From assembly GCA_035691305.1 (NCBI GenBank), contig DASSJF010000079.1, positions 1-53,122 on the forward strand: 53,122 nucleotides of DNA, written 5' to 3'. Positions 1,893 to 49,375 of the stretch are shown here, piece after piece (the stretch's first letter is position 1; every line of letters starts with the position of its first letter). Below the pieces are notes generated by a model. It was not told the origin of the DNA. It did no database searches and worked only from the letters and a program-made list of their open reading frames with translations. The DNA comes from a bacterium. Lineage in GTDB: Bacteria > Sysuimicrobiota > Sysuimicrobiia > Sysuimicrobiales > Segetimicrobiaceae. The translations under genes were made by a program, and so were the position numbers.

Positions 1893-1904
1893 CCCGCCCG
1901 CCGG

Positions 1905-5542: not shown

Positions 5543-5584
5543 TAGTACGGTTGGACCCGAAGCGGCGCTCCCGACGCGTGCGCG

Positions 5585-12496: not shown

Positions 12497-12503
12497 CGCC
12501 GCG

Positions 12504-14321: not shown

Positions 14322-14325
14322 CGCG

Positions 14326-28981: not shown

Positions 28982-29776
28982 TTAGGCGCCCTTCGACACG
29001 ACCCCCCAACGGCGCGCCCATGCGAGACCTTCGGCGGTCCCGGCCGCCGGCCGGTATTCCAGCCCGACCCAGCCGTCGTAGCGGATTTCGTCCAACAGCT
29101 CGAGCAGGTACGGGTAGTTGACTTCGCCGCGGTCGGGTTCGTGCCGGTCGGGCACGCCGGCGATCTGCACGTGCGCGTAGGCGCCGGCGAGTTTGCGGAT
29201 GTGCGTGGCGAGATCGCCCTCCATGATCTGGCAGTGGTAGAGATCGAGCTGGAGCTTGACGTTCGGCCGCCCGACCGCCTCGATCACCGCCATCGCCTCT
29301 CCGGTCGTATTCAAGAAATAGCCGGGCATGTCGCGCGTGTTGATGGGCTCGATCAGCACGGTGATGCCGTGCTCCGCGGCGAGGTCGGCGGCCCGCCGAA
29401 TATTGCCTGTGTAGACGGCGAGCCCTTCGGCGCGATCCCGTCCGGCCGGCCAGTTGCCGGCCATCGGATGGATGCGGCAGCAGTCCAGCGCCAGAGCGTA
29501 CTCAATCGCCCGTTTCAGACCGGCTTCGAATTCACGCTCGCGTCCGGGCAGGGCGGCCGTTCCGCGCTCACCCTTGGCCCAATCGCCCGGCGGCAGGTTG
29601 AACAGCGCCTGCGTCAGGCCGGCTCGTTTGAGCCGCGCCGCGACCTCTGCGGCCGGGAAGTCGTACGGGAAGAGGTACTCGACGCCGGTAAATCCCGCCG
29701 CCGCGGCCGTCTCGAACCGATCGAGGAAGCCGGCCTCCTGAAACATCATGGTGAGATTGGCCGCCAGCTTCGGCAT
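28982..29776 (-). CDS. hyi: Hydroxypyruvate isomerase family protein
   Basis: A 264-aa TIM-barrel isomerase that interconverts hydroxypyruvate and tartronate semialdehyde. Family segments are MPKLAANLTMMFQEAGFLDR, GVEYLFPYDFPAAEVAARL, FNLPPGDWAKGERG, and the metal/catalytic Glu in VLIEPINTRDMPGYFLN with QLDLYHCQIMEGDL. Length matches Hyi. The start at 29776 follows GGGGGGAG; a reading to 29965 adds unrelated residues. It is the last gene of the Grd-containing operon, 20 bp after another TIM-barrel isomerase, and would process a three-carbon product of sugar-acid breakdown. Confidence 0.88.
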   Translation of the reverse strand: MPKLAANLTMMFQEAGFLDRFETAAAAGFTGVEYLFPYDFPAAEVAARLKRAGLTQALFNLPPGDWAKGERGTAALPGREREFEAGLKRAIEYALALDCCRIHPMAGNWPAGRDRAEGLAVYTGNIRRAADLAAEHGITVLIEPINTRDMPGYFLNTTGEAMAVIEAVGRPNVKLQLDLYHCQIMEGDLATHIRKLAGAYAHVQIAGVPDRHEPDRGEVNYPYLLELLDEIRYDGWVGLEYRPAAGTAEGLAWARRWGVVSKGA

Positions 29777-29795
29777 TTGGGCTCCCCCCGTCCGG

Positions 29796-30581
29796 TCAGG
29801 CCGGCGTATCCGTGAGTCCGAGGCTCCGGAGATGCGCGAGGGCGCGCGGCACCGCCGTGCGTCCCGGCTCCTCACCCTCGTATTCGACAGAAACCGCGCC
29901 GCGGTAGCCGGCGGTGCGCAACAACTCGAGGGCTCCCGCGTTATCGATCCGGGCGTCGCGTCCATCCTCCCCCACTTGAGTGAATTTCGCGTGGACGTGG
30001 CGGGCCAGGCGCGCCGTGCGGACGATCGACGGCCGGCCGTCGATGAAGTTCCCCGTGTCGAGCAGGAGGCTGAGCGCCGGGCTGCCCACCGCGTCGAAGA
30101 TCGCCGCCACGTCGGCGGCGGTCTGCACGAAGCCGCCGTGGTTGTGGTTTTCCATAACCAGCGGCACCCCGGCCGCCTGGGCGCGGGCGCACACCGTCTT
30201 GAGCGACGCGATCATCGCGGGCCACCGCTCGGCGCGATCCCCTTCGGGCCAGCCCGCGAACGTCCGCAGGAACCGGCTCCCGAGATCCCGCGACACCTTC
30301 ATCCATTCGACCGTCCGGTCTTCCTCCGCGCGCCGCCGCGCCCCGTCGGTCAGGCCGAAGTTGTTCATGAGGGCAATGTTGACGATCTGGAGTCCCAGGC
30401 GCGAGGCGGCCGCCGTGAGCTCGTTGATCCGTGCCGCGGTCGGCCCGCCGATGTGCTTGTCCTCGAGTTCCACCGATCGCAGCCCCAATTCCTCGGCGCA
30501 CACCCGGAACCAGTCGGTCAGGCTCAAGCGCCCGCCGTTGATCTCCGGCGCGTACGATTCCGAACTGCACGAGAGATACAT
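29796..30581 (-). CDS. Sugar phosphate isomerase/epimerase (AP-endonuclease-2 fold)
   Basis: A 261-aa TIM barrel of the xylose-isomerase-like group (IolE/IolI/TIM_2). The metal-binding Glu and His/Asp residues appear in VPLVMENHNHGGFVQTA, LSLLLDTGNF, RHVHAKFTQVG and AVSVEYEGEE. The N-terminus LSCSSESYAPEINGGRLSLT is typical of sugar isomerases in inositol or keto-sugar pathways. AGGAGT precedes the ATG. It lies 4 bp after the Gfo/Idh gene and so is translationally coupled. The substrate is unknown; a keto-sugar or keto-sugar acid is likely from context. Confidence 0.88.
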   Translation of the reverse strand: MYLSCSSESYAPEINGGRLSLTDWFRVCAEELGLRSVELEDKHIGGPTAARINELTAAASRLGLQIVNIALMNNFGLTDGARRRAEEDRTVEWMKVSRDLGSRFLRTFAGWPEGDRAERWPAMIASLKTVCARAQAAGVPLVMENHNHGGFVQTAADVAAIFDAVGSPALSLLLDTGNFIDGRPSIVRTARLARHVHAKFTQVGEDGRDARIDNAGALELLRTAGYRGAVSVEYEGEEPGRTAVPRALAHLRSLGLTDTPA

Positions 30582-30584: not shown

Positions 30585-31568
30585 CTACTCCTGAGGAACC
30601 GGGGTGGACACGCCGCCGGTTCGGATGCTGGTGTACGCGGCCTCGAGTACGGCGATGCTCTGAAGGGCCTCCGACACGCCGACCGGCGGCGCCGCCTGGG
30701 CCAGGCAGGCGTCGATGAACTCGCGGTCCTCGTCGACGTAACCCCACAGCGTCACGCGGTCCGGCGACGGCAGCTGCTCCCACGGCGCGTCGGCCGTCTC
30801 GCGCGTCGTGTACCGGACGCGGTCGAGGTCCTCCGAGACGAGCAGCGCGTGATCGCCGTACAGCTCCACGCGCTCCTGGGGCGCCGCCCACGACGCGTGT
30901 CCGCACGTGCTGAAGACGACCGGCCGGTCGCCGTGGCAGCGTAGCAGCATCGCGATGTCGTCGTAGTCGGGGTAGCAGCTGCGCCGGCCGAGCGCCGAGA
31001 CCTGCTCGACGGGGCCCACCAGCCACCCGACCATGTCGACGAGATGCACGGCGGTATCGTACATGAAGCCGCCGCAGATCTCGACGTTCGTGTACCAGCT
31101 CGGGGTCAGCATGTCGCCGTCGTTGATCTTCACGTTCGCGGAGTACGGGACAAACCCCGCGTCTACATGGGATTTCAGGAAACGGTACGACGGCGACCAG
31201 CGCCGGTTGAACCCCATCTGGTAGACCCGGCCGGAGCGCCGGACCCGCTCCGCGACCGTCCGTCCGTCGGCGAGCGTGGTCGCCATCGGCTTCTCGCAGA
31301 AGACGTGAAGCCCACGGTCGAGCGCGTCGAGCACGACCCGGGCGTGGAAGGCGTTCGGCAGCGTCACGAAGACCGCTTCCGCGCCGGCGTCGGCAAGGTC
31401 CCCGACGTCGCGGCACGGCTTCGCCCCGGCCTCGGCCGCCGCGGAGCGGGCGGCCTCCTCTGCCGCGTCGGCGACGCCCACCACCCGCACGCGGTCGTCG
31501 CGCGCGAGCGCCTCCAGGTGCCGGCGGCCCATCGCGCCGGCGCCGATCAACCCCACCTTCACGCCCAC
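30585..31568 (-). CDS. Gfo/Idh/MocA NAD(P)-dependent dehydrogenase
   Basis: A 327-aa oxidoreductase. The N-terminal Rossmann domain has GLIGAGAMGRRHLEAL, and the family's catalytic Lys lies in VFCEKPMATTLADG. The C-terminal half has the beta-sheet domain with GFMYDTAVHLVDMVGWL, whose conserved Asp-x-x-x-His supports sugar binding. It would oxidise or reduce a sugar, inositol or sugar acid. GTG start; a second GTG at 31562 would give an exact GTGA overlap with the alcohol dehydrogenase stop. Its N-terminus closely resembles the partial gene at 52993, suggesting paralogues at the two ends of the island. Confidence 0.92.
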   Translation of the reverse strand: MGVKVGLIGAGAMGRRHLEALARDDRVRVVGVADAAEEAARSAAAEAGAKPCRDVGDLADAGAEAVFVTLPNAFHARVVLDALDRGLHVFCEKPMATTLADGRTVAERVRRSGRVYQMGFNRRWSPSYRFLKSHVDAGFVPYSANVKINDGDMLTPSWYTNVEICGGFMYDTAVHLVDMVGWLVGPVEQVSALGRRSCYPDYDDIAMLLRCHGDRPVVFSTCGHASWAAPQERVELYGDHALLVSEDLDRVRYTTRETADAPWEQLPSPDRVTLWGYVDEDREFIDACLAQAAPPVGVSEALQSIAVLEAAYTSIRTGGVSTPVPQE

Positions 31569-32761
31569 GGTTCGATCACCACTTTCATTGAATCCGGCGC
31601 CATCGACTTGCGGACGGCCGCCTCAACCTGCTCGAGTGGGAACCGGTGCGAGACGAACCGGTCCAGCGGATAGTGCTTTCGGTAGCGCGCCATCTGCCGC
31701 AGGCTGGGTCCGTAGCTGCCCACTTCCTCGCCGCCGACGCCGAGCATGCGGACGCTCTTGGTGCAGAGGTGCCGGTGCGGATTGATGGGCACGTCGCCGA
31801 GGTCGGAGAAGTTGCCGGCCTCGACCAGGAGCCCGCCTACGCGGAGCATCTCGAGCGCCTCCGGGATCACCTGCGGGACCCCTGCGCACTCCACCACCAC
31901 GTCGGCGCCGCGGCCGTGGGTAAAACCGCGCACGGCTTCGAGGCGCTCGGCCGCGGTCAGCCGGCCGGCGTCCAGCACGTGGTCGGCGCCGAGCGCGCGC
32001 GCCATCTCCAGCCGGTACGGCGAAAGGTCCACCGCCGCGATGATCCCGGCGCCGAGCATCCGCGCCTTCATTAGAAAGCACATCCCGAGGGGCCCGGCGC
32101 CCAGCACGACCACCGTGTCGTCGAACAGAAACGGCACGTCGGGCACGGCCGACATCTGCTTGGCGCGGTCCAGCCCGACCGTCACCGCCATGACCTCGGT
32201 GAGCACGGCGATCTCGTCCGGCACCCCGTCGGGCACCCGCACGAGGAAACTGCCGGACACGACGTACAGGTACTCCGCCCACCCGCCGAATAGATGCGGG
32301 GCGTCCGCGGCGCTCATGTTGTTGCCGTAGTCCACCATCCGCTCGCAGAAGTAGTACGGGAATCCGCGACGACAGTAGTAGCACGTGCCGCACACGACGT
32401 TGGTGCCGACCACGACGCGGTCGCCGACCGCGAGGGGCGTCCCCTCGACGTCGCGGTAGGTTCCGTCGCCGCCGATCGCGGCGACCGTCCCGACGTTCTC
32501 GTGGCCTTGGATGATCGGGAACGGAATTTGGCGCGGCGCCGCCGTGCCGGCGTACTGCGTCGTGTAGCCCTGATACGTGTGCTTGTCGGTGCCGCAGATG
32601 CCGGACAGCCGCATTTTGACGAGCGCGCACCCCCGCTCCGGCTCCGGCAGCGGATACTCGCGAATCTCGTAGCGCCCGGGCGCGACCAGGGTCGCGGCCC
32701 GCACGCGGCCGTTCGCCGTCGCCGCGGGCGGGCGGGTCGGTCGCCCGGCGGCGGGCGTCAT
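31559..32761 (-). CDS. Zinc-dependent alcohol/polyol dehydrogenase
   Basis: A 400-aa medium-chain dehydrogenase. Catalytic zinc ligands are seen in LSGICGTDKHTY and IQGHENVGTVAAIG. The structural-zinc loop is visible as CGTCYYCRRGFPYYFCER, and the NAD-binding motif as VVVLGAGPLGMCFLMKARMLG. The nearest groups are sorbitol, threonine or L-gulonate dehydrogenases. ATG 32761 is chosen because it overlaps the enolase-family stop as ATGA; four further residues are possible from 32773. It sits between the dehydratase and Gfo/Idh genes, so it likely oxidises the hydroxyl of a sugar-acid intermediate. Confidence 0.92.
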   Translation of the reverse strand: MTPAAGRPTRPPAATANGRVRAATLVAPGRYEIREYPLPEPERGCALVKMRLSGICGTDKHTYQGYTTQYAGTAAPRQIPFPIIQGHENVGTVAAIGGDGTYRDVEGTPLAVGDRVVVGTNVVCGTCYYCRRGFPYYFCERMVDYGNNMSAADAPHLFGGWAEYLYVVSGSFLVRVPDGVPDEIAVLTEVMAVTVGLDRAKQMSAVPDVPFLFDDTVVVLGAGPLGMCFLMKARMLGAGIIAAVDLSPYRLEMARALGADHVLDAGRLTAAERLEAVRGFTHGRGADVVVECAGVPQVIPEALEMLRVGGLLVEAGNFSDLGDVPINPHRHLCTKSVRMLGVGGEEVGSYGPSLRQMARYRKHYPLDRFVSHRFPLEQVEAAVRKSMAPDSMKVVIEPWA

Positions 32762-33870
32762 TCGAAGATCCAATCCTGCAGTTCCACGCCGAGGCCGGGC
32801 CCCTGCGGAACCTGCACCATGCCGTTGTCGACGACCAGCGGCGTCTTCAGCGTTTGCTGGTAGACGGCCGCGGGGAACGCCGGGGGATCGTCCGGGAACT
32901 CGAAATAGGTGACGTTGGGAATCGCCGCGGCCAGGTGTAAGTTGGCCACCGTGCCGAGCGGGTCACCCCAGGTGTGCGGCGTCAGCTCCACGTTCATCGC
33001 CGCCGCCGCCGCCGCCAGCGCGCGCATGCGCAGCAACCCCTCACACAGCGTGACGTCCGGTTGCAACACGTCGTAACAGCCGTCGCGCAGGAGCCGGTCG
33101 AGCTCCGCATATCCTTGGTTGACCTCCCCCCCCGCGATCGGGACCGGGGACGCCTCGCGCAGGCGGCGCAGCTGCTCGTAGGCGTGCCGCGGCAGCGGCT
33201 CCTCGAGCCACGTCACGTCGTACTCCGCGAGCGCCCGCGCCGTGTCGAGCGCGCGGTGGTAGCTCCAGTGCGGACCCGGCAGCGGGGCGCCGTCCACGTC
33301 GGTCTGGTTGGCGTCGGCCATGATGGCCATGCCGCCGCCGACGGCCTTCCGCACCGCGGCGATCTGCGCGACGTCGCCGGCCAGCGTCTCGTTGTGGATC
33401 CGCAGCTTGATCGCGCGGTAGCCCTCGTCGCGCAGTCGCTTCGCGTCCTCGGCGCGCTGGGCCGGCGTGCGGTTCTGGCCGGTGGACGCGTAGGCCGGCA
33501 GCGCGTCGCGGCAGTTGCCGAGCAGCTTGTAGACCGGCAGACCGGCGACCTTACCCAGGATGTCCCACAGCGCGATCTCCACGAACCAGACCGCGGTGCC
33601 GAAGTACGGCCAGAGGTAGCGCAGCGTGCCGGCGTGTTTCTCGATCCGCAGCGGATCCTCGCCGACCAAGTACTGCGCAATCCGCGCGACGCACTGCTCC
33701 TCGGCGCCGTAGAACTCGTGGCCGGCGATGCCGTAGACCCCGGCGTCCGTGTCGATCCGCACGTACGCGAGGTGGATCGCCTCGACGATCTGGCCCGGCG
33801 CCCACGCCGGATGAAACGGCGCCGGCAGCGGAACGTCCACCTGGCGCGTCCGAACCTTCGTGATGCGCAT
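32758..33870 (-). CDS. Mandelate racemase/acid-sugar dehydratase (enolase superfamily)
   Basis: A 370-aa protein with the capping domain at the N-terminus and a TIM barrel beyond about residue 130. Catalytic and metal residues are visible: Lys155-x-Arg157 (AIKLRIHN), Asp186 (IMADANQT), Glu224 (WLEEPLP) and Glu249 (IAGGEVNQ). Asp272 and His299 (LTPHTWGDPLG) form the His-Asp dyad of the mandelate racemase subgroup. Most such enzymes dehydrate aldonates to 2-keto-3-deoxy acids. It lies 30 bp after grdA in the same operon, so its product or substrate is probably connected to the Grd-type reaction. Confidence 0.91.
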   Translation of the reverse strand: MRITKVRTRQVDVPLPAPFHPAWAPGQIVEAIHLAYVRIDTDAGVYGIAGHEFYGAEEQCVARIAQYLVGEDPLRIEKHAGTLRYLWPYFGTAVWFVEIALWDILGKVAGLPVYKLLGNCRDALPAYASTGQNRTPAQRAEDAKRLRDEGYRAIKLRIHNETLAGDVAQIAAVRKAVGGGMAIMADANQTDVDGAPLPGPHWSYHRALDTARALAEYDVTWLEEPLPRHAYEQLRRLREASPVPIAGGEVNQGYAELDRLLRDGCYDVLQPDVTLCEGLLRMRALAAAAAAMNVELTPHTWGDPLGTVANLHLAAAIPNVTYFEFPDDPPAFPAAVYQQTLKTPLVVDNGMVQVPQGPGLGVELQDWIFE

Positions 33871-33900: not shown

Positions 33901-34368
33901 CTACGCACGCGGCCGGCCGCGCACGGTCGCGAGCGCCTCCTCGATACCGGGCTTATCCAGCACGAACGCCATGGGGCCGATCTGCTCGTCGTACACGCCG
34001 GCCGGAATGGCGTCCTTGACGCTCTCTTCGAGCACATGGTACACGGGGAGTCCCAACGGGACTCCGGCGAGCGGTCCGGCGTAGCTGGGGTCGCCGTCGG
34101 TCAGCGTGAGCGCGACCATGAGCGTGCTGGCGGCGTTCGGCGTGCCGAGCACCACCACCATCCGGTCGCGATCGCCGGCCTCGACGAGCTGCTGGATCCT
34201 CCCCTGCTCCTCCAGATCCATCGCGCCCGCCGACGTTCAGACGAAGCACTGCGTCGCGGCGTAGACGACCCGGCCGCCGGCGCTCTCGGCGCAGGCGGCG
34301 ATCGCTTGGGCCGGAATGCCGTCGCGTTCCCCGAGGGCGAGGACGAGCTTGCCGTGCAAATCGATCAT
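33901..34368 (-). CDS. grdA: Glycine reductase-type selenoprotein A (TGA = Sec44)
   Basis: A 155-aa selenoprotein. GrdA is the small carrier that accepts the substrate carbon chain as a selenoether in the reductase complex. Read through the in-frame TGA at 34237-34239, the protein gives VYAATQCFV-U-TSAGAMDLEEQG. This is the canonical GrdA redox motif CxxU with Sec at residue 44, its classical position. Downstream NGDP/AGPLAG-type text (DGDPSYAGPLAGVPLGLPVY) and length are normal. The ATG overlaps the grdC stop (ATGA). Treated as a stop, the TGA would leave two meaningless fragments. No clear SECIS stem is obvious; GGATC/GATCC arms 18-43 nt after the TGA are weak. Confidence 0.95.
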
Positions 34369-35825
34369 GCGACCCCTCCTCCGGCCGGCGGCGTCTCGTT
34401 GCGCTCCAGCAGCAGGCTGACGCCGTCCGCCATGTTGGTCATGCGGCCGAGAAACAAGCTGCCCTTCGCCACAAGCTGCACCCGCCGCAGCCGGCCGTCC
34501 GAGAGGCCGGCGATCGCGTGCGGCAGGTACGCTACCGCGGACGCGATGTGCCCCTGCGTCGGCGAGAAACCCGGCATCCCGTGCGCCGCGATGAAGGCGT
34601 CCATCCCCGCGCGGTCGATCTCGCCGCCCTGCGCGGCCAGCGCGGCGATCATCTGGTAGTTGCGGTACGGCACGTCGCCGGATCCGGCGGGCTCCGTGAT
34701 GTCCGGGTTGTGCAGTTCGACGGCGTACCGGTCCACGTCGGACAGCCGCAGGCCGGCGGCCCGCAAGGGCGCCGCGGAAAGCACCTGCGCCATCTGGTGA
34801 GGCGCGGCGCCGTCGCCGACCCGATGCACCGCCGCGGCGTCGAGGCGCAGCACCGGGCTGCGCCCGTCGTCCGGCACGACGTCGACCGCGGCGCCGACGA
34901 TGACGTCCTCGAGCACCGGATAGCCGGCGGCCACGTGGCCGCGGTACTTCATGCCCAGCTTCGCCAGCGAGCCGCCCGCCACCACGACCACGCGCCGGTG
35001 CACCCCCGCGGCGACCAGCGCGCCGGCCACCAGGAGCGCGTGCAGCGGACTCGCGCAGAACGACTTGACGTCCGACGCCCCGGCGGTGCGCACGCCGGCG
35101 AGTTCGCCGATCGTCTTGGCGAGGTTGCCGCCGCCCCGCTGGTATCGGTCGCCGACCGCCTCCTCGCCGCACCCGAGGAGATAGTCGACGGTCCCGTCCG
35201 CGGGCACCGCATCGAGCAGCGCCCGCAGGGCCAGCGCGCCGGTCACCTTCGCGGCGAGATTCTCCAGCAGCACCGCCGCCGCCAGCGACTCGTCCTGTTC
35301 GTGTCCGGGCACGAGGACGCCGACCGTTTCGTCGGGGGCGCGGCGCAGCGGCTCGGCGCCGCGCGCCGCCGCCCGCGCCAGGTCGGCCGCGGCCATCGTC
35401 TGGATCTGGTCCGGCGCGCCGAAACTCCGCAGCGTCTTCGCGAACTCGGGTGTGACGTACAGCAGGCTCGCCGTATCCGCACGCGCCAGCCAGGCGTAGA
35501 ACTCCGTCTCGTCGAGCATCCGCCCGGCGGGCCCCTCCGCGCGCGCCCCGTCCACCGGCCGGTCATGCCACGGCCGGGGAATCCCGCGCAGCGCCTCCGG
35601 CGGAAGCGCGCCGAGCATCACCTGGTGCGGCGGGTATCGCACGGCGTCCTCGAACGACCGCAGGTGCCGCACGAGCGCCTCGCGCTCCGCGGCGCCTCGG
35701 GACGCCAGCTCGCGCCGCGGTTTGGATCCGGCCGCGATCAGCCCCGGCGTGTGGGCGATGGCGAACCGCGCCGCGCGCACGACGGGCCGGAGGCCGAGGA
35801 CCGGTCCGGCGCCTTCAGTAGTCAA
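34365..35825 (-). CDS. grdC: Glycine reductase-type component C, beta subunit
   Basis: A 486-aa thiolase/KAS III-like protein. In glycine reductase, GrdC takes the acyl (ketene-level) unit from GrdA selenium onto a cysteine. Conserved text includes YVTPEFAKTLRSFGAPDQIQ, SFCASPLHALLVAGAL (candidate active-site Cys257), ELHNPDITEPAGSGDVPYRN, GMPGFSPTQGHIASAV and KGSLFLGRMTNMADGVSLLL. TTG start overlaps the grdE stop by 11 bp. The usual partner GrdD, a PlsX-like protein that releases acetyl phosphate, is absent here, so the fate of the acyl thioester is open. Confidence 0.92.
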   Translation of the reverse strand: MTTEGAGPVLGLRPVVRAARFAIAHTPGLIAAGSKPRRELASRGAAEREALVRHLRSFEDAVRYPPHQVMLGALPPEALRGIPRPWHDRPVDGARAEGPAGRMLDETEFYAWLARADTASLLYVTPEFAKTLRSFGAPDQIQTMAAADLARAAARGAEPLRRAPDETVGVLVPGHEQDESLAAAVLLENLAAKVTGALALRALLDAVPADGTVDYLLGCGEEAVGDRYQRGGGNLAKTIGELAGVRTAGASDVKSFCASPLHALLVAGALVAAGVHRRVVVVAGGSLAKLGMKYRGHVAAGYPVLEDVIVGAAVDVVPDDGRSPVLRLDAAAVHRVGDGAAPHQMAQVLSAAPLRAAGLRLSDVDRYAVELHNPDITEPAGSGDVPYRNYQMIAALAAQGGEIDRAGMDAFIAAHGMPGFSPTQGHIASAVAYLPHAIAGLSDGRLRRVQLVAKGSLFLGRMTNMADGVSLLLERNETPPAGGGVA

Positions 35826-37164
35826 GGTACGTCTGGCTTCCGAGGCCGTAGTTGTCGAAGTGGCCGAAGATCGGCGAATACGCCCCGGACACGGCCTCGA
35901 GATCCAGCGGCCCGGCCGCCGGCGTGCGGACGTCCGGGCGCTCCTGGTCGAAGACCACCTCGCGGCCGCCGATGACGCGCGGCATCGCCGGCAGCGGATC
36001 GGCCGGCGCGAGGGTGCCCGTGCTCACGATCGCGTCCGCCTCCGGGACGCTGAACAGCAGCGGCGGCTCCGACGTGCCGGTCTCTGCGAGCGCCGGCGTC
36101 ATCCTGACCACCTTGATGTCCGACTCGATCGTGAGGAACGTCGTCTTGATGCCGGCGCGCTCGAGGCTCTGAATCGTCATCATCACCTCGAGCAGGTCGT
36201 TGCCGCCGTGGTTCCAGGTGACGAGCGCGCCCTCGGCGCCGAGCATCGACGCCAGCTTGGCGGTCTGGTACGCGCTCAGGCGTTTCTCGTCGAGCCCGCC
36301 CCAGCGCGTGCGCGAGATGATGGAACCCAGCCACGCGACGTCGGTCCCGTCGCGGTCGTACAGGGCGCCGAGCACCGGGTTGTTCACGTGCAGCCACGTA
36401 CACTTGCCGGGATACGTCACGACCGCGTCGCCGGCGACCGCGCCGTCGAGGATTTCGTTGGGGTGCAGCAGCACGGGCAGGGCGTGCTGCGTATACCCGT
36501 AGATGCCGGTGCCGATGCCCGGGACCATCGACGCGTTGAGGGTGTGCACGTGCACGACGCGCGGCCGCCCCGCGGCCGGCGCCGCCAGCCGGTACCCGCG
36601 CCGCTCCGGCGGCGTCTGCCCGCGCACGAGCTCCGCGAGATCGGCCGCCACGCGGTGGGCGGCCCCGCGCAGCGCGTCGTTCCAGGACGTCAGGTCGAGG
36701 TCCGGCAGCGTCTCGATCGTCAGCGCCACGTACCGCAGCGTGCTGTAGACGGTCACGGCGCCGGGGCCCGACATGTCGATGAGGCTGTCCGTGGCCGCGC
36801 TGACCGTGCGGCGGATGTGCGGGAGCGCCTCCGAGGCGATGAGGACGCCGAAACCGGCGTACCGGTGCGTCACGCCGTCGCCGACGGTGTCCGGAGCGTG
36901 GCCGCAGATGCCGGGATAGGTATGGCCGGGGCCCTCGACCTTGACGCGCGGCTCGATCACGTCGCGCACCTGTACGATCCGGGCCGCCTCGCCCGGTTGG
37001 ACGAGATCCACGGCGACGCGGCGGATACGGCGGTCTTCCCGCACGAGCGCGGCGACGCGGTCCGTGTCGACCACGAGCCGGCCGTCCTTCCACCCCGCCG
37101 GCGCGCCGGAGGCGACCTCGCGAACGGGGAAGGTGCCCACGATCAGGTTCATCGGAACCGTCAT
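35815..37164 (-). CDS. grdE: Glycine/sarcosine/betaine reductase component B proprotein-like subunit
   Basis: A 449-aa protein of the GrdE/GrdG family, which forms the substrate-binding part of component B with GrdB. Conserved text includes RVAVDLVQPGEAARIVQVRD, VIEPRVKVEGPG, DTVGDGVTHRYAG and DMSGPGA, then LHPNEILDGA and WLHVNNPVLGALYDR. Glycine-type proproteins self-cleave at an Asn-Cys to make a pyruvoyl cofactor. By alignment from memory, that spot is Asp246-Ala247 here (AGDAVVTYPGKC), so no pyruvoyl should form and the substrate may lack an amine. The start overlaps the grdB stop as ATGA; the ORF extends further upstream to 37440, but that part is a grdB shadow. Confidence 0.9.
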   Translation of the reverse strand: MTVPMNLIVGTFPVREVASGAPAGWKDGRLVVDTDRVAALVREDRRIRRVAVDLVQPGEAARIVQVRDVIEPRVKVEGPGHTYPGICGHAPDTVGDGVTHRYAGFGVLIASEALPHIRRTVSAATDSLIDMSGPGAVTVYSTLRYVALTIETLPDLDLTSWNDALRGAAHRVAADLAELVRGQTPPERRGYRLAAPAAGRPRVVHVHTLNASMVPGIGTGIYGYTQHALPVLLHPNEILDGAVAGDAVVTYPGKCTWLHVNNPVLGALYDRDGTDVAWLGSIISRTRWGGLDEKRLSAYQTAKLASMLGAEGALVTWNHGGNDLLEVMMTIQSLERAGIKTTFLTIESDIKVVRMTPALAETGTSEPPLLFSVPEADAIVSTGTLAPADPLPAMPRVIGGREVVFDQERPDVRTPAAGPLDLEAVSGAYSPIFGHFDNYGLGSQTYLDY

Positions 37165-38495
37165 CGCGCCGCCACGGCCGTGGCGGCGTCCTCGAAGAGC
37201 GTGGGGCGCTCCACCCCGGTCCCGAGCGCCCGCAGCGCGCGCTCCACCAGGCGACGACGCACCTCGCCGTCCTCGTCGGCCGGCAGCGCGGGGTCCCCGC
37301 AGACGTGCTCGATCTTGACGCCCTGCACGACGCGGTTCGCGCCGGCCTGCATCGCCAGGGGCGGCAGCGCGCTGATGACAACCACCGGGATCCGCCGCCG
37401 TTCGATCTCTTTGCTGATCGTTGCGCCGCAACGATTGCACGACCCTCAGGTGGCGACGAGCAACACCCCGTCGATGCGCTCCTGCCAGAGCAGCTCCGCG
37501 ATCTCCTTGCCGTTGCGCACGCAGTCCGCGAACCGCTGGTCGTTACCGGTCGTGGTGCAGTAGAAGTCGGCGAGCCGCGCGAACACGCCGCGGGTTTCGA
37601 GGTCGCGCAGCGCGTCGAGCGGCAACACGACGTTGGGGTTCTCCGACGCCGGCACGTTGTAGAAGCCGCCGTGGACGCACTCGAACTCCGCCGGCGACAG
37701 GCGCTTCCGCCCGTCCAGCTCGTAACGCCGCCAGCGGGTCTCGCTGCACCGCTTCAAGTGGTCCGGATTCCCCTTCGGCACGATCGCGCCGGTCGTCACG
37801 ACGGCGATCGTCGCGTGCGGCAGGTCCGCGACCGGCGGCGCGGGCGCCACCGCCTCGTACCCTTCCACCGGCAACTCGGTGCGAAACGGCGTTCCGGCGA
37901 GTTTGGCGACGAGCATGTCGACGGCCCGCCGCGCGCCGGGGAGCGCCCGCGTGCCGGGACGGCGGACGCCGCGGGGCAGATAGCCCTCGTCCTCCGCCGG
38001 GCCGGCCGGGATCTTCGCGCCGAGCTTGAGCGCGAGCGGCACGATCGCGGCGATCGCCGCGCCCATGCCGGCGGCGGTGCCCGCGGTCGGCACGACGTAG
38101 GCCTCCCGGTACATGAGGAGCCCGGGATTCTCCGGGTACATGCCGCTGACGGCCGAAATCCCGAGGTCCGCCGCGATGCGGCACACCTCGACGCACGCCC
38201 GCCCGTACCGGCCCGCGGCGAACGCCGGCCCGGCGATCACCACGTCGGGACGCTGCGCGTCGAGCCAGGCGCGGACCGCCTCGGCCGCCGGCCCGATCTG
38301 CTCGTTGAAGTAACTGTCGCCGCATACCATCGTGGAGACCACCGCGCCGCGCGGGCCGAGGGCCGCCTGAATCGCGCGCCCGGGGCCGACCGCGCCGTCC
38401 TTGACGGCCGGCGGCGTGTCCGCGCGCTCCTCGCCGCCGATCCCGGCGAAGAACTGGTTGATGTAGTGCGCCACCCGCAGCCCGTGAGCGTCCAT
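37161..38495 (-). CDS. grdB: Glycine reductase-type selenoprotein B (TGA = Sec350)
   Basis: A 444-aa selenoprotein. GrdB's selenium attacks the substrate carbon bound by component B and passes it to GrdA. The N-terminus YINQFFAGIGGEERAD, FAAGRYGRACVEVCR and ENPGLLMYREAYVV are GrdB hallmarks. The in-frame TGA at 37446-37448 reads LLVAT-U-GSCNRCGATISKEIE, the family's UxxCxxC centre, and 94 conserved residues follow (RIPVVVISALPPLAMQAGAN). An 8-bp hairpin lies just after the TGA. ATG 38495 gives the family start; the longer reading to 38573 is basic and unrelated. A LacI-type operator and promoter lie about 80-120 bp upstream. Confidence 0.95.
37417..37435 (-). promoter_or_regulatory. SECIS-like hairpin in grdB
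   Basis: On the coding strand ATCGTTGC and GCAACGAT form a perfect 8-bp stem with loop GGC, spanning nt 11-29 after the TGA. The G-rich loop at nt 19-21 is where bacterial SECIS loops lie. It overlaps codons of the conserved UxxCxxC centre, so some pairing could reflect protein constraint. Confidence 0.6.
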
Positions 38496-38572: not shown

Positions 38573-38614
38573 ATTATGGGGCACGGCGGCGGCGTTAGTC
38601 AAACCGATTTGGCA
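38573..38614 (-). promoter_or_regulatory. grdB promoter with LacI-type operator
   Basis: On the minus strand the 18-mer TGCCAAATCGGTTTGACT (38597-38614) matches the operator before the LacI gene in 16 of 18 positions. Its right arm contains the -35 box TTGACT (38597-38602). An 18-bp spacer and -10 box CATAAT (38573-38578) follow, each box matching five of six consensus bases. Transcription would start near 38566, about 70 nt before grdB, so the grd genes form a separate unit from the upstream Dpp genes. Binding at the -35 box would repress. Confidence 0.82.
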
Positions 38615-38625: not shown

Positions 38626-39495
38626 CTACGGCGCACGATTGGCGCTCCAGCGGCCCCGCACGCGGTCGGCCAACCGGTTCAGGGCCAGGACGGTGAGCGC
38701 GATGAGCGCCCCAGGGAAGATGCCGTACCACGGCGCGGCGTACATGTACTCGCGGCTCTCGCTGATCATGAGGCCCCACGACGGCTGGGGCGGCTGGGTT
38801 CCGAGCCCGAGAAAACTCAGGCTCGCCTCGAGCAGGATGGCGCGCGACACGCCGATCGGAATCTGGATCAGCACCGGCGAGAGCACGTTCGGCAGGATCG
38901 TCCGAAAGACGATACGCGCATCCCGCGCGCCGGCCGCGACGGAGGCCTCCACGTACTCCATCTCCCGATGGATCAGCACGCCGGCCCGCGCGATCCGGGC
39001 GAACTGCGGCAGCCCCACGAGCGCGATCGCGATCCCGGCGTTCAGCGATCCCGGCCCGACCGCCGCGACGAGTGCCATCGCCAGCAGGACGGGTGGAACG
39101 GCGAGCAGGGTGTCGACCGTCCGCATCGCGACCGCGTCCACGGCGCCGCCTTTGAATCCGGTCCACAACCCGAGCGGCACGCCGCACACCGCGGAGACCG
39201 TGGTCGACCCGACGCCGATGAGGAGGGCCGTCCGGGCGCCGTAGAGGAGCCGGCTGAGAATGTCCCGGCCGAACTGGTCGGTACCGAGCAGGTGGCGCCA
39301 CGACGGGAGCGCGAGGACGGATTCCTTGCTCATGTCCGTCGGGCTGTACCGCGCGAGGAGCGGCGCGGCGATCGCCGCCGCCGCGATCGCCGCCAGGAAG
39401 ACCGCGCCGGGATCGAACAGCCCCCGCCGGCGGAGCCGCGGCCGCGCGCGGAGGCCGACGCGGGGATCCACGAGGCTCCGCGCCGACACGCTCAT
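38626..39495 (-). CDS. Dipeptide/oligopeptide-type ABC permease (DppC family)
   Basis: A 289-aa inner-membrane permease. The N-terminal DppC segment LARYSPTDMSKESVLALPSW with HLLGTDQFGRDILSRLLYGA, the EAA loop EYVEASVAAGARDARIVFRT-ILPN, and LSFLGLGTQPPQPSWGLMI are diagnostic. About six helices. The ATG overlaps the DppB stop as ATGA. It pairs with the DppB and binding-protein genes; no ATPase gene is in this cluster, so the energising subunit is either elsewhere or shared. Cargo may be a peptide, opine, glycoside or sugar acid. Confidence 0.93.
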   Translation of the reverse strand: MSVSARSLVDPRVGLRARPRLRRRGLFDPGAVFLAAIAAAAIAAPLLARYSPTDMSKESVLALPSWRHLLGTDQFGRDILSRLLYGARTALLIGVGSTTVSAVCGVPLGLWTGFKGGAVDAVAMRTVDTLLAVPPVLLAMALVAAVGPGSLNAGIAIALVGLPQFARIARAGVLIHREMEYVEASVAAGARDARIVFRTILPNVLSPVLIQIPIGVSRAILLEASLSFLGLGTQPPQPSWGLMISESREYMYAAPWYGIFPGALIALTVLALNRLADRVRGRWSANRAP

Positions 39496-40451
39496 TGGTA
39501 CCGCACGCGCGGGTCGAGCAGCCCGTAGAGCGCGTCGGTGCAGAGGTTGATCCCCACGAACGCGGCGATCCCCACGAGGATGACCGACTGCGTCACGAGG
39601 TAGTCCCGCGTCAGGATCGAGCGCCAGAGCATGCTGCCGAGACCCGGAATCGCGAAGACGGCCTCGGTGATCACGGCGCCGCCGATGAAGAATCCGGCCT
39701 GAATGCCGAGCACCGTCACGATCGGGATGAGCGCGTTGCCGAGGGCGTGCCGCCAGACGACGGCGCGGGCCGGCAGGCCCTTTGCGCGGGCGGTGCGGAT
39801 GTAGTCGTTCGACAGCACGTCGCCGAGCGACGCCTCGACGAAGCGCGCCATCACCGAGCCGACCCCGAGGCCGAGGGTGATCCCCGGCAGCAGGAGGCTG
39901 CGCGCCCACGCGGTCGGGTTCACTCCGAAGCCCGCGAAGCCCGACGGCGGCAGCCATTTCAAAACGACGCCGAAGTACCACGACAGCACGACGCCGAGCC
40001 AGAACACCGGGACCGCGAGCGCCCATCCATGGTACCAGCGCAGCGCGACCGTGACCGGCGACCGCGGCCGGGTCGCCGCGAACACGCCGGCGGGAAACGC
40101 GATGAGCACGACGACCGCGAACGCCCACAGCGACAACTGCAGGGTCAGCGGAAGCGCGCGGCCGACGATCTCCGCCACGGGCGCGCCGTTGATGAGCGAG
40201 TGGCCGAGGTCTCCATGCGCAATGCGGACGATCCAGTTCCCGTACTGCAGCGGGAGCGGCCGGTCCAAGCCGAGATACACCCGCAGCGCCCGCACCTGGT
40301 CGGGGGTGCCGCGGTCTCCAAGGATCACCTGCGCCGGATCGCCGGGCAGCGCGGCCACCATGGCGAAGACCAGGACCGACGCGAGGAACAGGGTGAACGC
40401 GGCCTCGATGCCGCGCCGCACCAAGTAGCGTCCCAGCCCGCCGGCCGCCAT
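39492..40451 (-). CDS. Dipeptide/oligopeptide-type ABC permease (DppB family)
   Basis: A 319-aa permease starting YLVRRGIEAAFTLFLASVLV, with GDPAQVILGDRGTPDQV and the coupling loop LGDVLSNDYIRTARAKGLPA-RAV, then GNALIPIVTVLGIQAGFFIG. These are standard DppB segments. It lies 5 bp after the creatininase-family gene and overlaps dppC, so the order binding protein, hydrolase, permeases is one transcript. The gene cluster lacks DppD and DppF ATPases. Confidence 0.93.
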   Translation of the reverse strand: MAAGGLGRYLVRRGIEAAFTLFLASVLVFAMVAALPGDPAQVILGDRGTPDQVRALRVYLGLDRPLPLQYGNWIVRIAHGDLGHSLINGAPVAEIVGRALPLTLQLSLWAFAVVVLIAFPAGVFAATRPRSPVTVALRWYHGWALAVPVFWLGVVLSWYFGVVLKWLPPSGFAGFGVNPTAWARSLLLPGITLGLGVGSVMARFVEASLGDVLSNDYIRTARAKGLPARAVVWRHALGNALIPIVTVLGIQAGFFIGGAVITEAVFAIPGLGSMLWRSILTRDYLVTQSVILVGIAAFVGINLCTDALYGLLDPRVRYQ

Positions 40452-40456: not shown

Positions 40457-41248
40457 CTATTGCCGCTCTAGCGCGGCGAGCGCTTCTGTGACCCTCCGTG
40501 CGATCTGATCGGACTCGTAAGCCACGTCCTCACGCCCCTTCGCCGCGCTGGCGCGGCGGGGATCGTGCTCCGGGGCCACCGTGAAGTCAGGGGTGGGCTC
40601 GCCGACCACCGTTTGGCGGTCGAGGATCCCGAACTCGCGGTAGCCAAGCGGCTGCGGCGGCGCCGGCAGCGCGGAGAGGTCGATGGCCTCGGGATGGTAC
40701 GCCAGCAGGTATGACGTTTCGCCGATCGCCGCGTGCTCGCGGTATCGGCCGTCGTAGAGGTATCCCGCCAGCAGGACGGTCGCGCGGCCCGGTTCCGTCG
40801 TCTCGGTCGCCACCCGCATCAGCGTCATCCGGTGGTTGAGCGCCCCGTGACCGTTCACGAGCGCGATCACTTTGAACGCCTGGCGCTTCAGGCCCCGCAC
40901 TACCTCGCGTACGATCAACGCGAACGCGCTCTCCTCGATGTAGAGGCTCGGCAGCGCGAACCCGGGGTAGTCCATCCCGTAGATGCGCTCGGTCCCGGTG
41001 AAGCCGCGGTGGCGGAGTCGCTCCGCGTCCGTGTAGGTCTCGGTGCCGAGCGGCAGGGGCGGCAGGACGACGCCGCCGGCCTTGCGCGCCGCGTCCAGCG
41101 CCATCGTGTGCGCGTGCAGCATGTCCATCCCGACGGCCATATGCGGGCCGTGCCATTCCATCGGACCGATCGGCAGATAGGCGATCGCCGCCCGCGCGCG
41201 GGCGGCGACGATGTCTTGGGGCCGCATCAGTTCGTACCGGATCTCCAT
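40457..41248 (-). CDS. Creatininase-family amidohydrolase
   Basis: A 263-aa metal-dependent hydrolase of the creatininase family, which opens cyclic amides (creatinine to creatine) or acts on peptides and lactams. Metal-binding text is visible: YLPIGPMEWHGPHMAVGMDM (Glu, His, Asp), VNGHGALNH and GETSYLLAYHPE. The family is broad and also includes MftE and sugar-lactam enzymes, so creatinine is not proven. It sits between the binding protein and the permeases, implying that it acts on the imported compound. The grd genes next door could use a sarcosine-like product; that is speculative. Confidence 0.88.
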   Translation of the reverse strand: MEIRYELMRPQDIVAARARAAIAYLPIGPMEWHGPHMAVGMDMLHAHTMALDAARKAGGVVLPPLPLGTETYTDAERLRHRGFTGTERIYGMDYPGFALPSLYIEESAFALIVREVVRGLKRQAFKVIALVNGHGALNHRMTLMRVATETTEPGRATVLLAGYLYDGRYREHAAIGETSYLLAYHPEAIDLSALPAPPQPLGYREFGILDRQTVVGEPTPDFTVAPEHDPRRASAAKGREDVAYESDQIARRVTEALAALERQ

Positions 41249-41285: not shown

Positions 41286-42866
41286 TCAGCGGTTGAGCCA
41301 CGTCCCCTTCAGCTGAATCAGCATCTGCGGATCGACGTCGAACCCCTGCACCGCCTTGCCGAGGCCGTATGTCGGCAGGCGCAGCGCGACCGGCACGGCC
41401 CACGCCTGCTCGAGGATATAGCGGATCACGCCGCGCAGGCGCGTCCAGCGCTCGCGCATGTCGGACGTCGTGTTGAGGCCGAGCAGCCCGTCGACGTATT
41501 CGCGCGGCGGTCCGACCTGGATCCACGCCGGATTCGTCCCGTCCGTCCGGAACGCCGAGCTGATGGTGAAGTCCGTCGGGTCGATCGTCGCCAGCGTGAG
41601 GAACGAGAGGCTGAGGTCGAAGTTGCCGGCGAAGTACGGCGGGAAGTATTGGGCCGGCTCGTGGATCGTGATGTTGGCGTCGAGGCCGGCCTGCCGGAGA
41701 TCCGCCTGGATGATCTGCGCGATCTGCGGCAGTTCGGGCGTGCTGGTGGAGGTCAGGAAGTTCAGCCGCACGTTGCGGCCCGCACCGGCCGACGCGAGGA
41801 TCTGCTTCGCCTTCGCGGCGTTGTACCCGTACTCGGCGTCGAGCTTCGGGTCGTAGCCCGGCGAGGCCGGGGTGACCATCTGCACGACCGGCCGGCCGAC
41901 GCCGCCCAGCACGGTGCGCACGACCGCGGCGCGGTCGACCAGCAACTGGATCGCCTGCCGGACCTTGATGTTGTCAAGCGGCGGCCGGCGCGTGTTGATG
42001 ACGAGGACGTAGTACTCGTTCGGCACCGGGGCGGGCGTGATCTCGAAGCCGGCCTGCCGGAGGCGCGCGACGTCCTTGTTGACGATCGTGTGCGCGACGT
42101 CGACCGTGCCGGCCTGGAAGGCGTTCTCGAGCGCCTGGGGATCCGAAAACACCCGGCAGACGACGCGGTCCAGCAGCGGCAGCCCCTGCTGCCAGTACCC
42201 GTCGAAGCGGGTGAAGGTGACGTGGTCGCCCGGCGCCCACTCCTGCACGCGGTACGGTCCGGTGCCGCCGCCCTTGTTCCGCACCGTGGCGAACGCCGCC
42301 GGATCGACCATGCCCCAGCGGGCGATCTGCGCGAGGTAATCAGGGTGCGGATGCGCGAACCGGAACCGGACGGTGCGCGCGTCGAGGCGGTCGGCCGCCT
42401 CCCAGTCGGCGAGGCGGCTGAACAGCCCCCCGCCCGTCGCCTTGTCCTTCGTGCGGCGGAAGTTGGCGATCAGCGCGTCGGCGCCGAAGGTGCCGCCGGA
42501 ATGTGTCCGCACGCCGTCGCGCAACCGGAACACGACGCTCAGGCCGTCCTTCGCCACGTCCCAGAACTCGGCCAGGTCCGGCCGGGCCTGCAGCGTGGTC
42601 GTGTACTTCACCAGATAATTGTAGACCTGGAAAAACATCGGCACGTTCGCGAACACGATGTCGTTCGGATCCAGCGACACGAGGTCGGTGTTCAGGCCGA
42701 CCGTCAACGTGCCGCCGCGCTTCTCCGCGGCCGCGAGCACCCGCGGGGCAGGCAGCCGCCCGCCGGGCAGCACCGCGCCGGCCGCGGCGCCCGCCGTGAG
42801 CGCCAGCAGCCGGCGACGCGTCAAACTCTCTCGACCGGGCTCCGAGCGATTGCCCCCGTGCGCCAT
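41286..42866 (-). CDS. ABC substrate-binding protein, family 5 (Dpp/Opp type), Tat-exported
   Basis: A 526-aa binding protein. The N-terminus has a twin-arginine signal (LTRRRLLALTAGAAAGA), then GGTLTVGLNTDLVSLDPNDI typical of SBP_bac_5 proteins. Internal markers include GDHVTFTRFDGYWQQGLPLL and IQLLVDRAAVVRTVLGGVGR. It ends in a normal C-terminus, VDPQMLIQLKGTWLNR. GGAGGGAG precedes the ATG. First gene of the transporter-hydrolase unit that abuts grdB. The 25-bp gap to the preceding permease gene (42892) leaves little room for a promoter, so read-through from the carbohydrate transporter is possible. Confidence 0.93.
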   Translation of the reverse strand: MAHGGNRSEPGRESLTRRRLLALTAGAAAGAVLPGGRLPAPRVLAAAEKRGGTLTVGLNTDLVSLDPNDIVFANVPMFFQVYNYLVKYTTTLQARPDLAEFWDVAKDGLSVVFRLRDGVRTHSGGTFGADALIANFRRTKDKATGGGLFSRLADWEAADRLDARTVRFRFAHPHPDYLAQIARWGMVDPAAFATVRNKGGGTGPYRVQEWAPGDHVTFTRFDGYWQQGLPLLDRVVCRVFSDPQALENAFQAGTVDVAHTIVNKDVARLRQAGFEITPAPVPNEYYVLVINTRRPPLDNIKVRQAIQLLVDRAAVVRTVLGGVGRPVVQMVTPASPGYDPKLDAEYGYNAAKAKQILASAGAGRNVRLNFLTSTSTPELPQIAQIIQADLRQAGLDANITIHEPAQYFPPYFAGNFDLSLSFLTLATIDPTDFTISSAFRTDGTNPAWIQVGPPREYVDGLLGLNTTSDMRERWTRLRGVIRYILEQAWAVPVALRLPTYGLGKAVQGFDVDPQMLIQLKGTWLNR

Positions 42867-42891: not shown

Positions 42892-43797
42892 TCAGCCCTT
42901 GAGCGCGCCGGCGGTGAAGCCGCGGACCAGCGACTGCCGGAACGCCAGCACGAACAGCACGACGGGGATCGTCATGATCACCCCGAGCGTGGCGAGCGCG
43001 CCCCATTGCAGCTTCTTGTAGCCGGCGGTGAAGCTCATGATCGCCACCGAGCCGGTGCGCGCGTTGAAACTCGTCACGATCAGCGGGAACAGAAACTCGT
43101 TCCAGTTGAAGATGAAGCTGAGGATGAAAGCGGCCAGCAGGCCCGGCCCCGCCAGCGGCAGCAGGATTCTCGTCACGATCGCCGGCAGCGAGGCGCCGTC
43201 CAACGCCGCGCTCTCGGCGAGCTCCCGCGGCACGTCCGCGAGGAACGTATGCAGCACCCACATCGCCAACGGGATCTCGAACCCGATGAACAGGATGACG
43301 AGGGCCGTCTTGGTGTCGATGAGTCCGAGGTGCTTCAGGGCCAGCTGAATCGGGATCAGTGTCGTCACCGGCGGGAACATCCGGGGCAGCAAGATGAGCA
43401 GAAACAGCACCGTCTTCGCCTTGAAGTCGAGGAAGCGAAACGTCATCGCCGCGAGGCCGGCCAGCACGACGGTGCCGGCCGCCCCGAGCGTGGACGTCAG
43501 CAGGCTCGTCCAGATCGGCGCCGCCAGGCCGCTGGCGACGAAGTCGTGGTACCGCTCGAGCGTCGGGACGAAGAACACCGCGGAGCGGTCGATCAGAAGG
43601 CGCTCGGGCTTGAGCGACAGGGCGATGAGGTACAGGAACGGCGGCAGCGTCCAAGCCAACACCGCCGCGATGCCGGCGATCTGCCAGCGGCCGCGACGGA
43701 CGGCCGCCGCCGACCGGTGGCGGACGTGCGTACGCGCCGCCCGCCGGTGGACGGCCTCGGCGTCGCCTTCGCGCGGAGCCAGGTCGCGGGCGTCCAT
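42892..43797 (-). CDS. Carbohydrate ABC permease (MalG family)
   Basis: A 301-aa inner-membrane permease. The MalG-type pattern is clear: six helices starting AGIAAVLAWTLPPFLYLIALS, PIQLALKHLGLIDTKTALVI, the EAA loop ELAESAALDGASLPAIVTRI-LLPLAGPG, and FILSFIFNWNEFLFPLIVTS. Its ATG overlaps the upstream permease stop in the pentamer TGATG. The first 40 residues are an unusually hydrophilic Arg-rich extension. It pairs with the MalF-type permease. The usual MalK ATPase is absent from the cluster and is often shared in such genomes. Confidence 0.93.
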   Translation of the reverse strand: MDARDLAPREGDAEAVHRRAARTHVRHRSAAAVRRGRWQIAGIAAVLAWTLPPFLYLIALSLKPERLLIDRSAVFFVPTLERYHDFVASGLAAPIWTSLLTSTLGAAGTVVLAGLAAMTFRFLDFKAKTVLFLLILLPRMFPPVTTLIPIQLALKHLGLIDTKTALVILFIGFEIPLAMWVLHTFLADVPRELAESAALDGASLPAIVTRILLPLAGPGLLAAFILSFIFNWNEFLFPLIVTSFNARTGSVAIMSFTAGYKKLQWGALATLGVIMTIPVVLFVLAFRQSLVRGFTAGALKG

Positions 43798-49185: not shown

Positions 49186-49334
49186 GCGCCCGCACCTCCG
49201 AGACGATGGCCGCCGAGGCGACCGCCCGGCCGCCGAGGCAGAGGCCGAGCAATCTGCCGTGACGGCGGGGCGAATGTCTGATCTGATCGGATACGCTGTG
49301 GGCCTGACGTTTCGGGCCGCCGCCCGGGAATTCC

Positions 49335-49375
49335 TGTCAAATCGGTTTGACAAATGGGTCCGCTGTCCCCACAAT
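49335..49375 (+). promoter_or_regulatory. LacI-gene promoter with overlapping palindromic operator
   Basis: TGTCAAATCGGTTTGACA (49335-49352) is an 18-bp palindrome with a central CG, the form bound by LacI-family dimers. Its right arm is the consensus -35 box TTGACA (49347-49352). A 17-bp spacer precedes the -10 box CACAAT (49370-49375, four of six). The site lies between the divergent FAD and LacI genes and implies autorepression. A clear promoter for the minus-strand genes was not found. Confidence 0.85.

Follow-up and report, generated by a model that had tools for sequence, protein, structure and literature searches.

What does a glycine reductase-type (Grd) complex do in the middle of a set of carbohydrate-type genes? 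The presence of a Grd complex is usually read as a sign of Stickland fermentation of amino acids, and such genes are labelled in databases as glycine, sarcosine or betaine reductase. We address this question for contig DASSJF010000079.1 of assembly GCA_035691305.1, a bacterium of the family Segetimicrobiaceae (phylum Sysuimicrobiota), in which the genes grdB, grdE, grdC and grdA lie next to genes for carbohydrate-type enzymes. The window is the whole stretch of 53,122 nucleotides; its source genome (G000; 3.58 Mb, 96% complete) was analysed within a phylum set of 43 genomes (Sysuimicrobiota/CSP1-3, 'ANGP1' soil lineages) searched by family. We consider it fairly likely that the locus encodes a selenocysteine (Sec)-dependent complex with a non-Stickland role, which cleaves its substrate reductively at C-alpha and was recruited to a carbohydrate regulon of the LacI type. 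On the best reading, its substrate would be an alpha-substituted carboxylate from a carbohydrate-like compound, O- or N-linked at C-alpha.

The grd genes and selenocysteine decoding

The reading frames and Pfam bear out four glycine reductase-type genes in coupled order, with Sec350 in GrdB and Sec44 in GrdA, as proposed earlier from the sequence. The genes and the candidate Sec insertion sequence (SECIS) elements are:

37161..38495, minus strand: grdB, selenoprotein B of the GrdB/GrdE 'protein B' pair, 444 amino acids (Pfam GRDB, 395 bits)
35815..37164, minus strand: grdE, partner subunit of protein B (Pfam Gly_reductase, 251 bits)
34365..35780, minus strand: grdC, thiolase-like beta subunit of protein C (Pfam DUF5940 (GrdC), 178 bits)
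33901..34368, minus strand: grdA, selenoprotein A (Pfam GRDA, 174 bits)
37417..37435, minus strand: putative SECIS-like stem-loop of grdB, 8-bp stem with a GGC loop, starting 10 nt past the UGA codon
34203..34216, minus strand: weak candidate for a SECIS-like hairpin of grdA, 4-bp stem (RNAalifold on relatives)

Sec350 is encoded by an in-frame TGA at 37448-37446, within the motif VATUGSCNRC, and Sec44 by one at 34239-34237 (CFVUTSAGAMDLE). ATGA overlaps at grdB/grdE and at grdC/grdA show that these pairs are translationally coupled. The grdC frame, which stops at 34365, starts at a GTG (35780) or a TTG (35825), and its active-site-like FC is conserved in the alignment.

The TGA of grdB occupies the same position in 12 of 12 GrdB sequences of the clade described below, and that of grdA is conserved in all clade GrdAs covered. 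The grdB stem was found in all clade members, with compensatory changes at loci L040 and L037. Across 10 distinct sequences, 97.5% of the cells pair and two pairs are changed on both sides; the covariation score was matched by 1 of 500 shuffles. This stem emerged from the alignment: single-sequence SECIS energies reached no significance (for the grdA hairpin, a z-score of 0.29), and an Rfam scan of the window returned one tRNA and no bacterial SECIS match. Both elements are accordingly presented as predictions from sequence.

G000 carries selA (466 bits), selB and tRNA-Sec(tca) together on one contig, as well as selD (393 bits). The earlier note had named a lack of Sec machinery as a reason to abandon its proposal; selA, selB, selC and selD are all present. 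Conserved TGA codons, a SECIS-like stem and this machinery together mark GrdB and GrdA as predicted selenoproteins. The selD gene itself (C40:8198-9118; L080/L103) has one in-frame TGA, and SelD is probably a selenoprotein too.

A clade outside the known Grd reductases

GrdA and GrdC-beta pass the equivalog models for glycine/sarcosine/betaine reductase components A (NF040748, 176.4 bits, cut-off 130) and C (NF040746, 499 bits, cut-off 450). GrdB was accepted by the broad model TIGR01918 (442 bits) and by no substrate-specific NCBIfam equivalog, and GrdE passed none of the NCBIfam models. Scores fell below the cut-offs for glycine reductase (GrdB against TIGR01917, 418 of 602 bits), for sarcosine reductase GrdF/GrdG (NF040794/NF040793, 448 of 800 and 172 of 780 bits), for betaine reductase GrdH/GrdI (NF040795, 379 of 775 bits) and for the fluoroacetate reductase subunit FarE (GrdE against NF053623, 68.5 bits, cut-off 675). 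Of the published motifs used as tests (PMC9751293), both pieces of the GrdB motif (GPxF[NF]AGRYG, AHGGxD) fail and the sarcosine reductase motif IHGGYDR is absent in all clade members; CxxC is present in GrdB. Among solved structures, GrdB, GrdE and GrdC found no relatives beyond weak thiolase-like matches, and an AlphaFold model of GrdE (predicted local distance difference test score 79) had no PDB match at E <= 0.001.

In both the GrdB and the GrdE trees, these proteins form a clade that stands alone with 100/100 support, its sisters coming from genomes G109 and G295; in the GrdB tree, the reductases for glycine, sarcosine and betaine are united in a group of their own (support 100/97). As judged from these phylogenies, the clade falls outside all three of these reductase types. 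It also differs at residues linked to amine handling. GrdE carries AGDA in place of SGNC, the motif of its glycine and sarcosine counterparts in which Cys turns into a pyruvoyl group (PMC9908766), and all full clade GrdEs read AGDA, TGDA or AGDM at this position. GrdB has ATUG, compared to STUG in the amino-acid and betaine enzymes, so that, two residues ahead of Sec, Ala stands in place of a Ser that has been proposed as a second carbonyl site (PMC10838667). The loss of carbonyl sites, which is partly common to betaine and fluoroacetate reductase, speaks against substrates that bind as Schiff bases, among them glycine and sarcosine.

The absence of GrdD and acetate kinase

The description of the grd set as complete was not borne out. 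GrdD, the alpha subunit of protein C that is involved in acetyl phosphate formation, is absent from locus and genome: its model (NF040747) was over cut-off in none of the 43 phylum genomes and found no match whatever in G000. Acetate kinase (PF00871) is absent from G000 and from 8 of the 10 clade genomes, 2 of these 8 being less than 70% complete. Lacking both, G000 has no classical acetyl phosphate route, and Stickland-type energy conservation, in which acetyl phosphate yields ATP via acetate kinase, was not found there. A second Grd cluster in the clade genome G023 (L039:10972-18392) encodes GrdB, GrdC, GrdA, a GrdE-like protein, an ADP-forming acyl-CoA synthetase and another GrdE-like protein, which hints that acyl groups leave GrdC toward CoA.

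A partner oxidoreductase and LacI-type operators

Two further lines of evidence, gene co-occurrence and shared operator sequences, tie the clade to carbohydrate-type genes. They involve the following features:

47740..49212, minus strand: FAD1, a PF12831 oxidoreductase dependent on flavin adenine dinucleotide (FAD) (Pfam, 350 bits)
49418..50506, plus strand: LacI-family regulator (Pfam LacI and Peripla_BP_3)
38573..38602, minus strand: predicted sigma-70-like promoter of grdB, TTGACT-18-CATAAT
38597..38614, no strand assigned: putative LacI-type operator in the grdB promoter, AGTCAAACCGATTTGGCA, with a perfect 12-base core
49335..49352, no strand assigned: putative LacI-type operator between FAD1 and lacI, TGTCAAATCGGTTTGACA, with 0 mismatches

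An orthologue of FAD1 (at least 81% identity) is present in 10 of 10 clade genomes, the copy of G030 being a fragment, and in none of the other 33, the best match outside the clade genomes reaching 48%. Fisher's exact test gives p = 5e-10 for this co-occurrence, uncorrected for kinship and resting on few independent events. The association holds within genera: G024 is without both FAD1 and the clade and G000 and G023 have both; likewise, G022 is without both and G020 and G021 have both. FAD1 is thus a genomic partner of the clade. Its AlphaFold model gave fold-level matches only (flavoprotein reductases, halogenases, FixC), which name no reaction.

The 18-base palindrome TGTCAAAYCGRTTTGACA has two sites in the window at <=3 mismatches, compared to none in 100 shuffles; two sigma-70-like promoters were found in the region against 0.7 expected. 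The operator motif recurs in the relatives L041, L043, L044 and L048. It precedes FAD3-grdB in L041 and FAD1/lacI in L043 and L048, and in L044 it stands before genes for a sugar-binding protein and a triosephosphate isomerase (TIM)-barrel protein, the latter a 71% orthologue of the product of 29796..30581. Of the 'sugar-acid operon' claimed earlier, the carbohydrate-type context is retained; in place of a single operon, a regulon of LacI type with several transcription units is the better description.

The carbohydrate-type island

The other genes of the island are listed below; ABC stands for ATP-binding cassette and MDR for medium-chain dehydrogenase/reductase.

46324..47733, minus strand: FAD2, a second PF12831 oxidoreductase, syntenic in L043/L044 and L048
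44781..46175, minus strand: CUT1-type sugar ABC binding protein (SBP_bac_1; nearest solved structures of maltose/trehalose/sorbitol type)
43797..44696, minus strand: CUT1-type permease 1 (BPD_transp_1)
42892..43749, minus strand: CUT1-type permease 2 (BPD_transp_1)
41286..42866, minus strand: Dpp/Nik-type ABC binding protein (NCBIfam, under equivalog cut-offs)
40457..41248, minus strand: creatininase-family hydrolase, far under the creatininase and IolN equivalog cut-offs
39492..40451, minus strand: DppB-type permease, with orthologues adjoining the clade Grd set in L041, L044 and L046
38626..39489, minus strand: DppC-type permease (BPD_transp_1, 104 bits, and OppC_N)
32758..33870, minus strand: enolase-superfamily acid-sugar dehydratase-like protein (MR_MLE_C, 215 bits)
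31559..32725, minus strand: Zn-dependent alcohol dehydrogenase of the MDR family, related to HpnZ/IolM, under their cut-offs
30585..31568, minus strand: Gfo/Idh/MocA dehydrogenase related to IolG (Pfam and NCBIfam)
29796..30581, minus strand: AP_endonuc_2 TIM-barrel isomerase/epimerase (Pfam; L044 orthologue 71%)
28985..29782, minus strand: 2-oxo-tetronate/hydroxypyruvate isomerase (Hyi-like), an AP_endonuc_2 TIM barrel (NF043033, 386 bits, cut-off 325)
50503..51780, plus strand: DegT/DnrJ/EryC1/StrS aminotransferase-family protein (Pfam, 304 bits)
51798..52967, plus strand: levoglucosan-dehydrogenase-like Gfo/Idh dehydrogenase (NF052479, 269 bits, cut-off 650; solved relatives 4h3v and 6a3f)

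The genes downstream of grdA agree with their first description: an enolase-superfamily protein, a Zn-dependent alcohol dehydrogenase, a Gfo/Idh dehydrogenase and two AP_endonuc_2 barrels, the last of which passes the 2-oxo-tetronate isomerase equivalog. The nearest solved relatives of the enolase-superfamily protein are galactonate dehydratase and mandelate racemases; for this protein, the binding protein and the creatininase-family neighbour, solved-structure relatives gave no substrate assignment. A macro-domain protein is encoded on the opposite strand just downstream of the island (28427-28969 of the window).

Island genes recur around the clade in relatives in varying order, and all clade loci of sufficient length, among them one outside the phylum (G043), show a carbohydrate-type context. 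In family f4, FAD1, the CUT1 transporter and grdBECA make up the core that is retained. The contig of L044 (G028) contains the entire island twice; in the second copy (10628-14652), grdB, grdE and grdC are split into several frames, and this copy is a decaying duplicate or reflects assembly errors.

Carriers of the clade and of glycine-type Grd

GrdB is present in 14 of the 43 phylum genomes and the clade in 10 (G000, G020, G021, G023 and G028-G033). The named clade contigs are ANGP1/Terrabacteria metagenome-assembled genomes (MAGs) recovered from soils of the Angelo grassland and of Centralia. ANGP1 corresponds to CSP1-3, now Sysuimicrobiota. Family names in PMC11604079 point the same way; the text of that phylum survey contains neither 'glycine reductase' nor 'selen'. 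The occurrence of the island in ten MAGs at high identity argues against contamination. Nine of the 10 clade genomes encode a haem-copper oxidase; the exception is a bin of 64% completeness.

The clade also occurs in G043 (Centralia_MAG_106, labelled Proteobacteria, from another collection). Accompanying genes there encode sugar ABC transporters, an enolase-superfamily protein and a LacI regulator, and the TrxA gene sits between grdA and grdC (grdA-trxA-grdC; L059). In a sample of 400 genomes from the phylum of G043, 9 have a GrdE relative and G043 is the sole one in the clade. Other genomes of that phylum (G109, L106; G213, L107/L108; G313, L102) contain several grdE-grdB pairs without the pyruvoyl Cys and without STUG, those of G313 adjoining Dpp-type binding proteins; these pairs appear to represent a large uncharacterised radiation of protein B. 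In G295, grdB-E-C-A genes in the order of the window adjoin a gene for a BNR-repeat (sialidase-like) protein (L100:9521-13650). Locus L057, labelled Gemmatimonadetes (AG29), was dropped as evidence from another phylum: it is 99.5% identical over 5.2 kb to the ANGP1 contig L045 and is probably a mislabelled bin.

Glycine-type Grd exists in the same phylum. Genus g11 (G008, G010, G011) has STUG and, in both members with a complete GrdE, SGNC; no haem-copper oxidase was found in these three genomes. Locus L036 of G010 (1-8436) carries a glycine-type grdE-grdB-trxB-grdC-grdA set, in which the TrxB gene adjoins grd, followed by gcvH-gcvPA-gcvPB and without grdD. A constant association with glycine cleavage or Stickland genes would have spoken against the earlier note; the clade recurs instead with sugar ABC transporters, FAD oxidoreductases, enolase-superfamily proteins, alcohol dehydrogenases and Gfo/Idh dehydrogenases. 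The grd-gcv operon of L036 belongs to another genus and another clade, and the non-Stickland reading stands.

A proposed reaction

In established Grd chemistry, an alpha-substituted carboxylate is activated on protein B and loses its substituent, and GrdA carries a selenium-bound two-carbon unit; GrdC then makes an acyl thioester while GrdA becomes oxidised. In the window, a carbohydrate-like or polyol-like compound would be imported via the CUT1 and/or the Dpp-type transporter and oxidised by FAD1 along with the NAD- and Zn-dependent dehydrogenases. The regulon and FAD1 point to such a carbohydrate-like precursor that is oxidised first. Oxidation would expose a carboxylate bearing a leaving group at the alpha carbon, to be bound by GrdB/GrdE. 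Given a GrdE without pyruvoyl and Ala in place of Ser, a Schiff base of the kind proposed for glycine and sarcosine is not expected to form, and binding may resemble that in betaine or fluoroacetate reduction. Sec350 would displace the leaving group and the acyl-methylene unit would pass to Sec44 of GrdA; GrdC would form the acyl thioester, and the oxidised GrdA would later be re-reduced by thioredoxin. As neither GrdD nor acetate kinase is encoded, GrdC probably passes the acyl group to CoA or releases it in some way other than as acetyl phosphate for ATP. The cleavage step may serve carbon use and, under oxygen shortage, act as an electron sink.

Several points weigh against this reading. 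The complex of the clade is known from genes and the operators from sequence motifs, so that their regulatory function is presumed. The neighbour set varies, f4 genomes retaining only the core named above. The role of the Ser two residues before Sec as a carbonyl site is itself a proposal (PMC10838667). Finally, a nitrogenous substrate would be in keeping with the Dpp transporter, the creatininase-family protein and the DegT protein, and a nitrogen leaving group is compatible with a pyruvoyl-less GrdE, as betaine reductase has one too.

Alternative explanations

The last two points also speak for the alternative that survives best, an N-linked substrate: a glycine conjugate of a sugar, cyclitol or other carbohydrate-like compound (R-NH-CH2-COO-, for example of Amadori or mycosporine type) or a betaine-like quaternary amine. 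The island would import and trim the compound, and Grd would cut its N-C-alpha bond to yield an acetyl unit and an amine. The three nitrogen-type genes share the island with grd; betaine reductase, in which GrdE is likewise pyruvoyl-less, cleaves a C-N bond, as do all characterised Grd complexes except fluoroacetate reductase. However, the pyruvoyl-forming Cys of the glycine/sarcosine GrdE/GrdG is absent, GrdB and GrdE both group apart from betaine reductase, and in the f4 genomes, over the stretch read, Grd, FAD1 and the sugar transporter occur with no Dpp, creatininase or DegT genes. We regard such a substrate as possible but unlikely. The earlier note had proposed that the complex works on an oxygenated C-alpha compound from sugars or sugar acids. 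The LacI-type operators, the FAD1 profile and the loss of amine-handling residues uphold a non-Stickland, carbohydrate-linked role; the oxygen is not secured, the Dpp transporter, creatininase-family hydrolase and DegT protein leaving room for nitrogen.

An ordinary glycine, sarcosine or betaine reductase that lies among sugar genes by accident is very improbable. The equivalog matches of GrdA and GrdC and the gcv system of G000 would fit it. Against it stand the separate clade, the failed GrdB and GrdF motifs, the lost pyruvoyl Cys, the absence of GrdD and acetate kinase from G000, the shared operator and the exact co-occurrence with FAD1; the gcv genes, including gcvP, are on a contig other than that of grd. 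The creatininase-family gene also brought up creatinine fermentation, in which creatininase would lead via sarcosine to Grd; given 66 of 235 bits and the failed sarcosine reductase tests, this idea was abandoned.

Dehalogenation or detoxification, in which a halogen or similar group is removed from an alpha-substituted acid as by fluoroacetate reductase (FarB/FarE), is scarcely credible: FarE is also without pyruvoyl cysteines (PMC10838667), but GrdE scores 68 bits against a FarE cut-off of 675, GrdB retains the CxxC that FarB is missing, and sugar transporters and dehydrogenases fit poorly.

A recruited, carbohydrate-linked cleavage complex thus remains our preferred reading. A narrower proposal, advanced tentatively and at somewhat less than even chances, is a new selenoenzyme reaction, which would reductively cut a C-alpha-O bond, or some other bond not to an amine, in a carbohydrate-derived acid. 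An FAD oxidoreductase would feed it as its obligate partner, the acyl group would exit independently of GrdD, and the reaction would run in soil bacteria that carry genes for aerobic respiration. What sets the locus apart is a well-supported clade of soil bacteria that has lost the amine-handling residues and that operator sequences and co-occurrence connect with a carbohydrate regulon. If the reading is correct, selenium-dependent reductive cleavage would gain a further class of substrates, glycine reduction would be overcalled in genome annotations, and the binding proteins, FAD1 and GrdB/GrdE would offer a direct route to the soil compound concerned.

Comparison with known systems

The Gfo/Idh, Zn-dependent alcohol dehydrogenase, creatininase-family and TIM-barrel superfamilies also make up Thermotoga-type inositol catabolism (IolG, IolM, IolN, IolO); all inositol-gene scores are far under the equivalog cut-offs, which places the likeness at the superfamily level only. 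Fluoroacetate reductase shares a pyruvoyl-less protein B and a non-amino-acid substrate (PMC10838667); it differs in the CxxC of GrdB and in the FarE model. Betaine reductase GrdH/GrdI resembles the window in that GrdI is without the pyruvoyl Cys, but GrdH retains STUG and falls in another clade, and the E. gilvus operon carries grdD and a BCCT-family transporter. Glycine reductase (GrdA; GrdB/GrdE; GrdC/GrdD) differs in having GrdD, the pyruvoyl Cys of GrdE and the Ser of STUG; the complex of the window belongs to a separate clade and a carbohydrate regulon, in genomes with haem-copper oxidase and, in this genome, without acetate kinase. Nevertheless, its GrdA and GrdC-beta are bona fide members of these families, its GrdB has Sec350 and CxxC, and its three-component chemistry should on the whole be the same.

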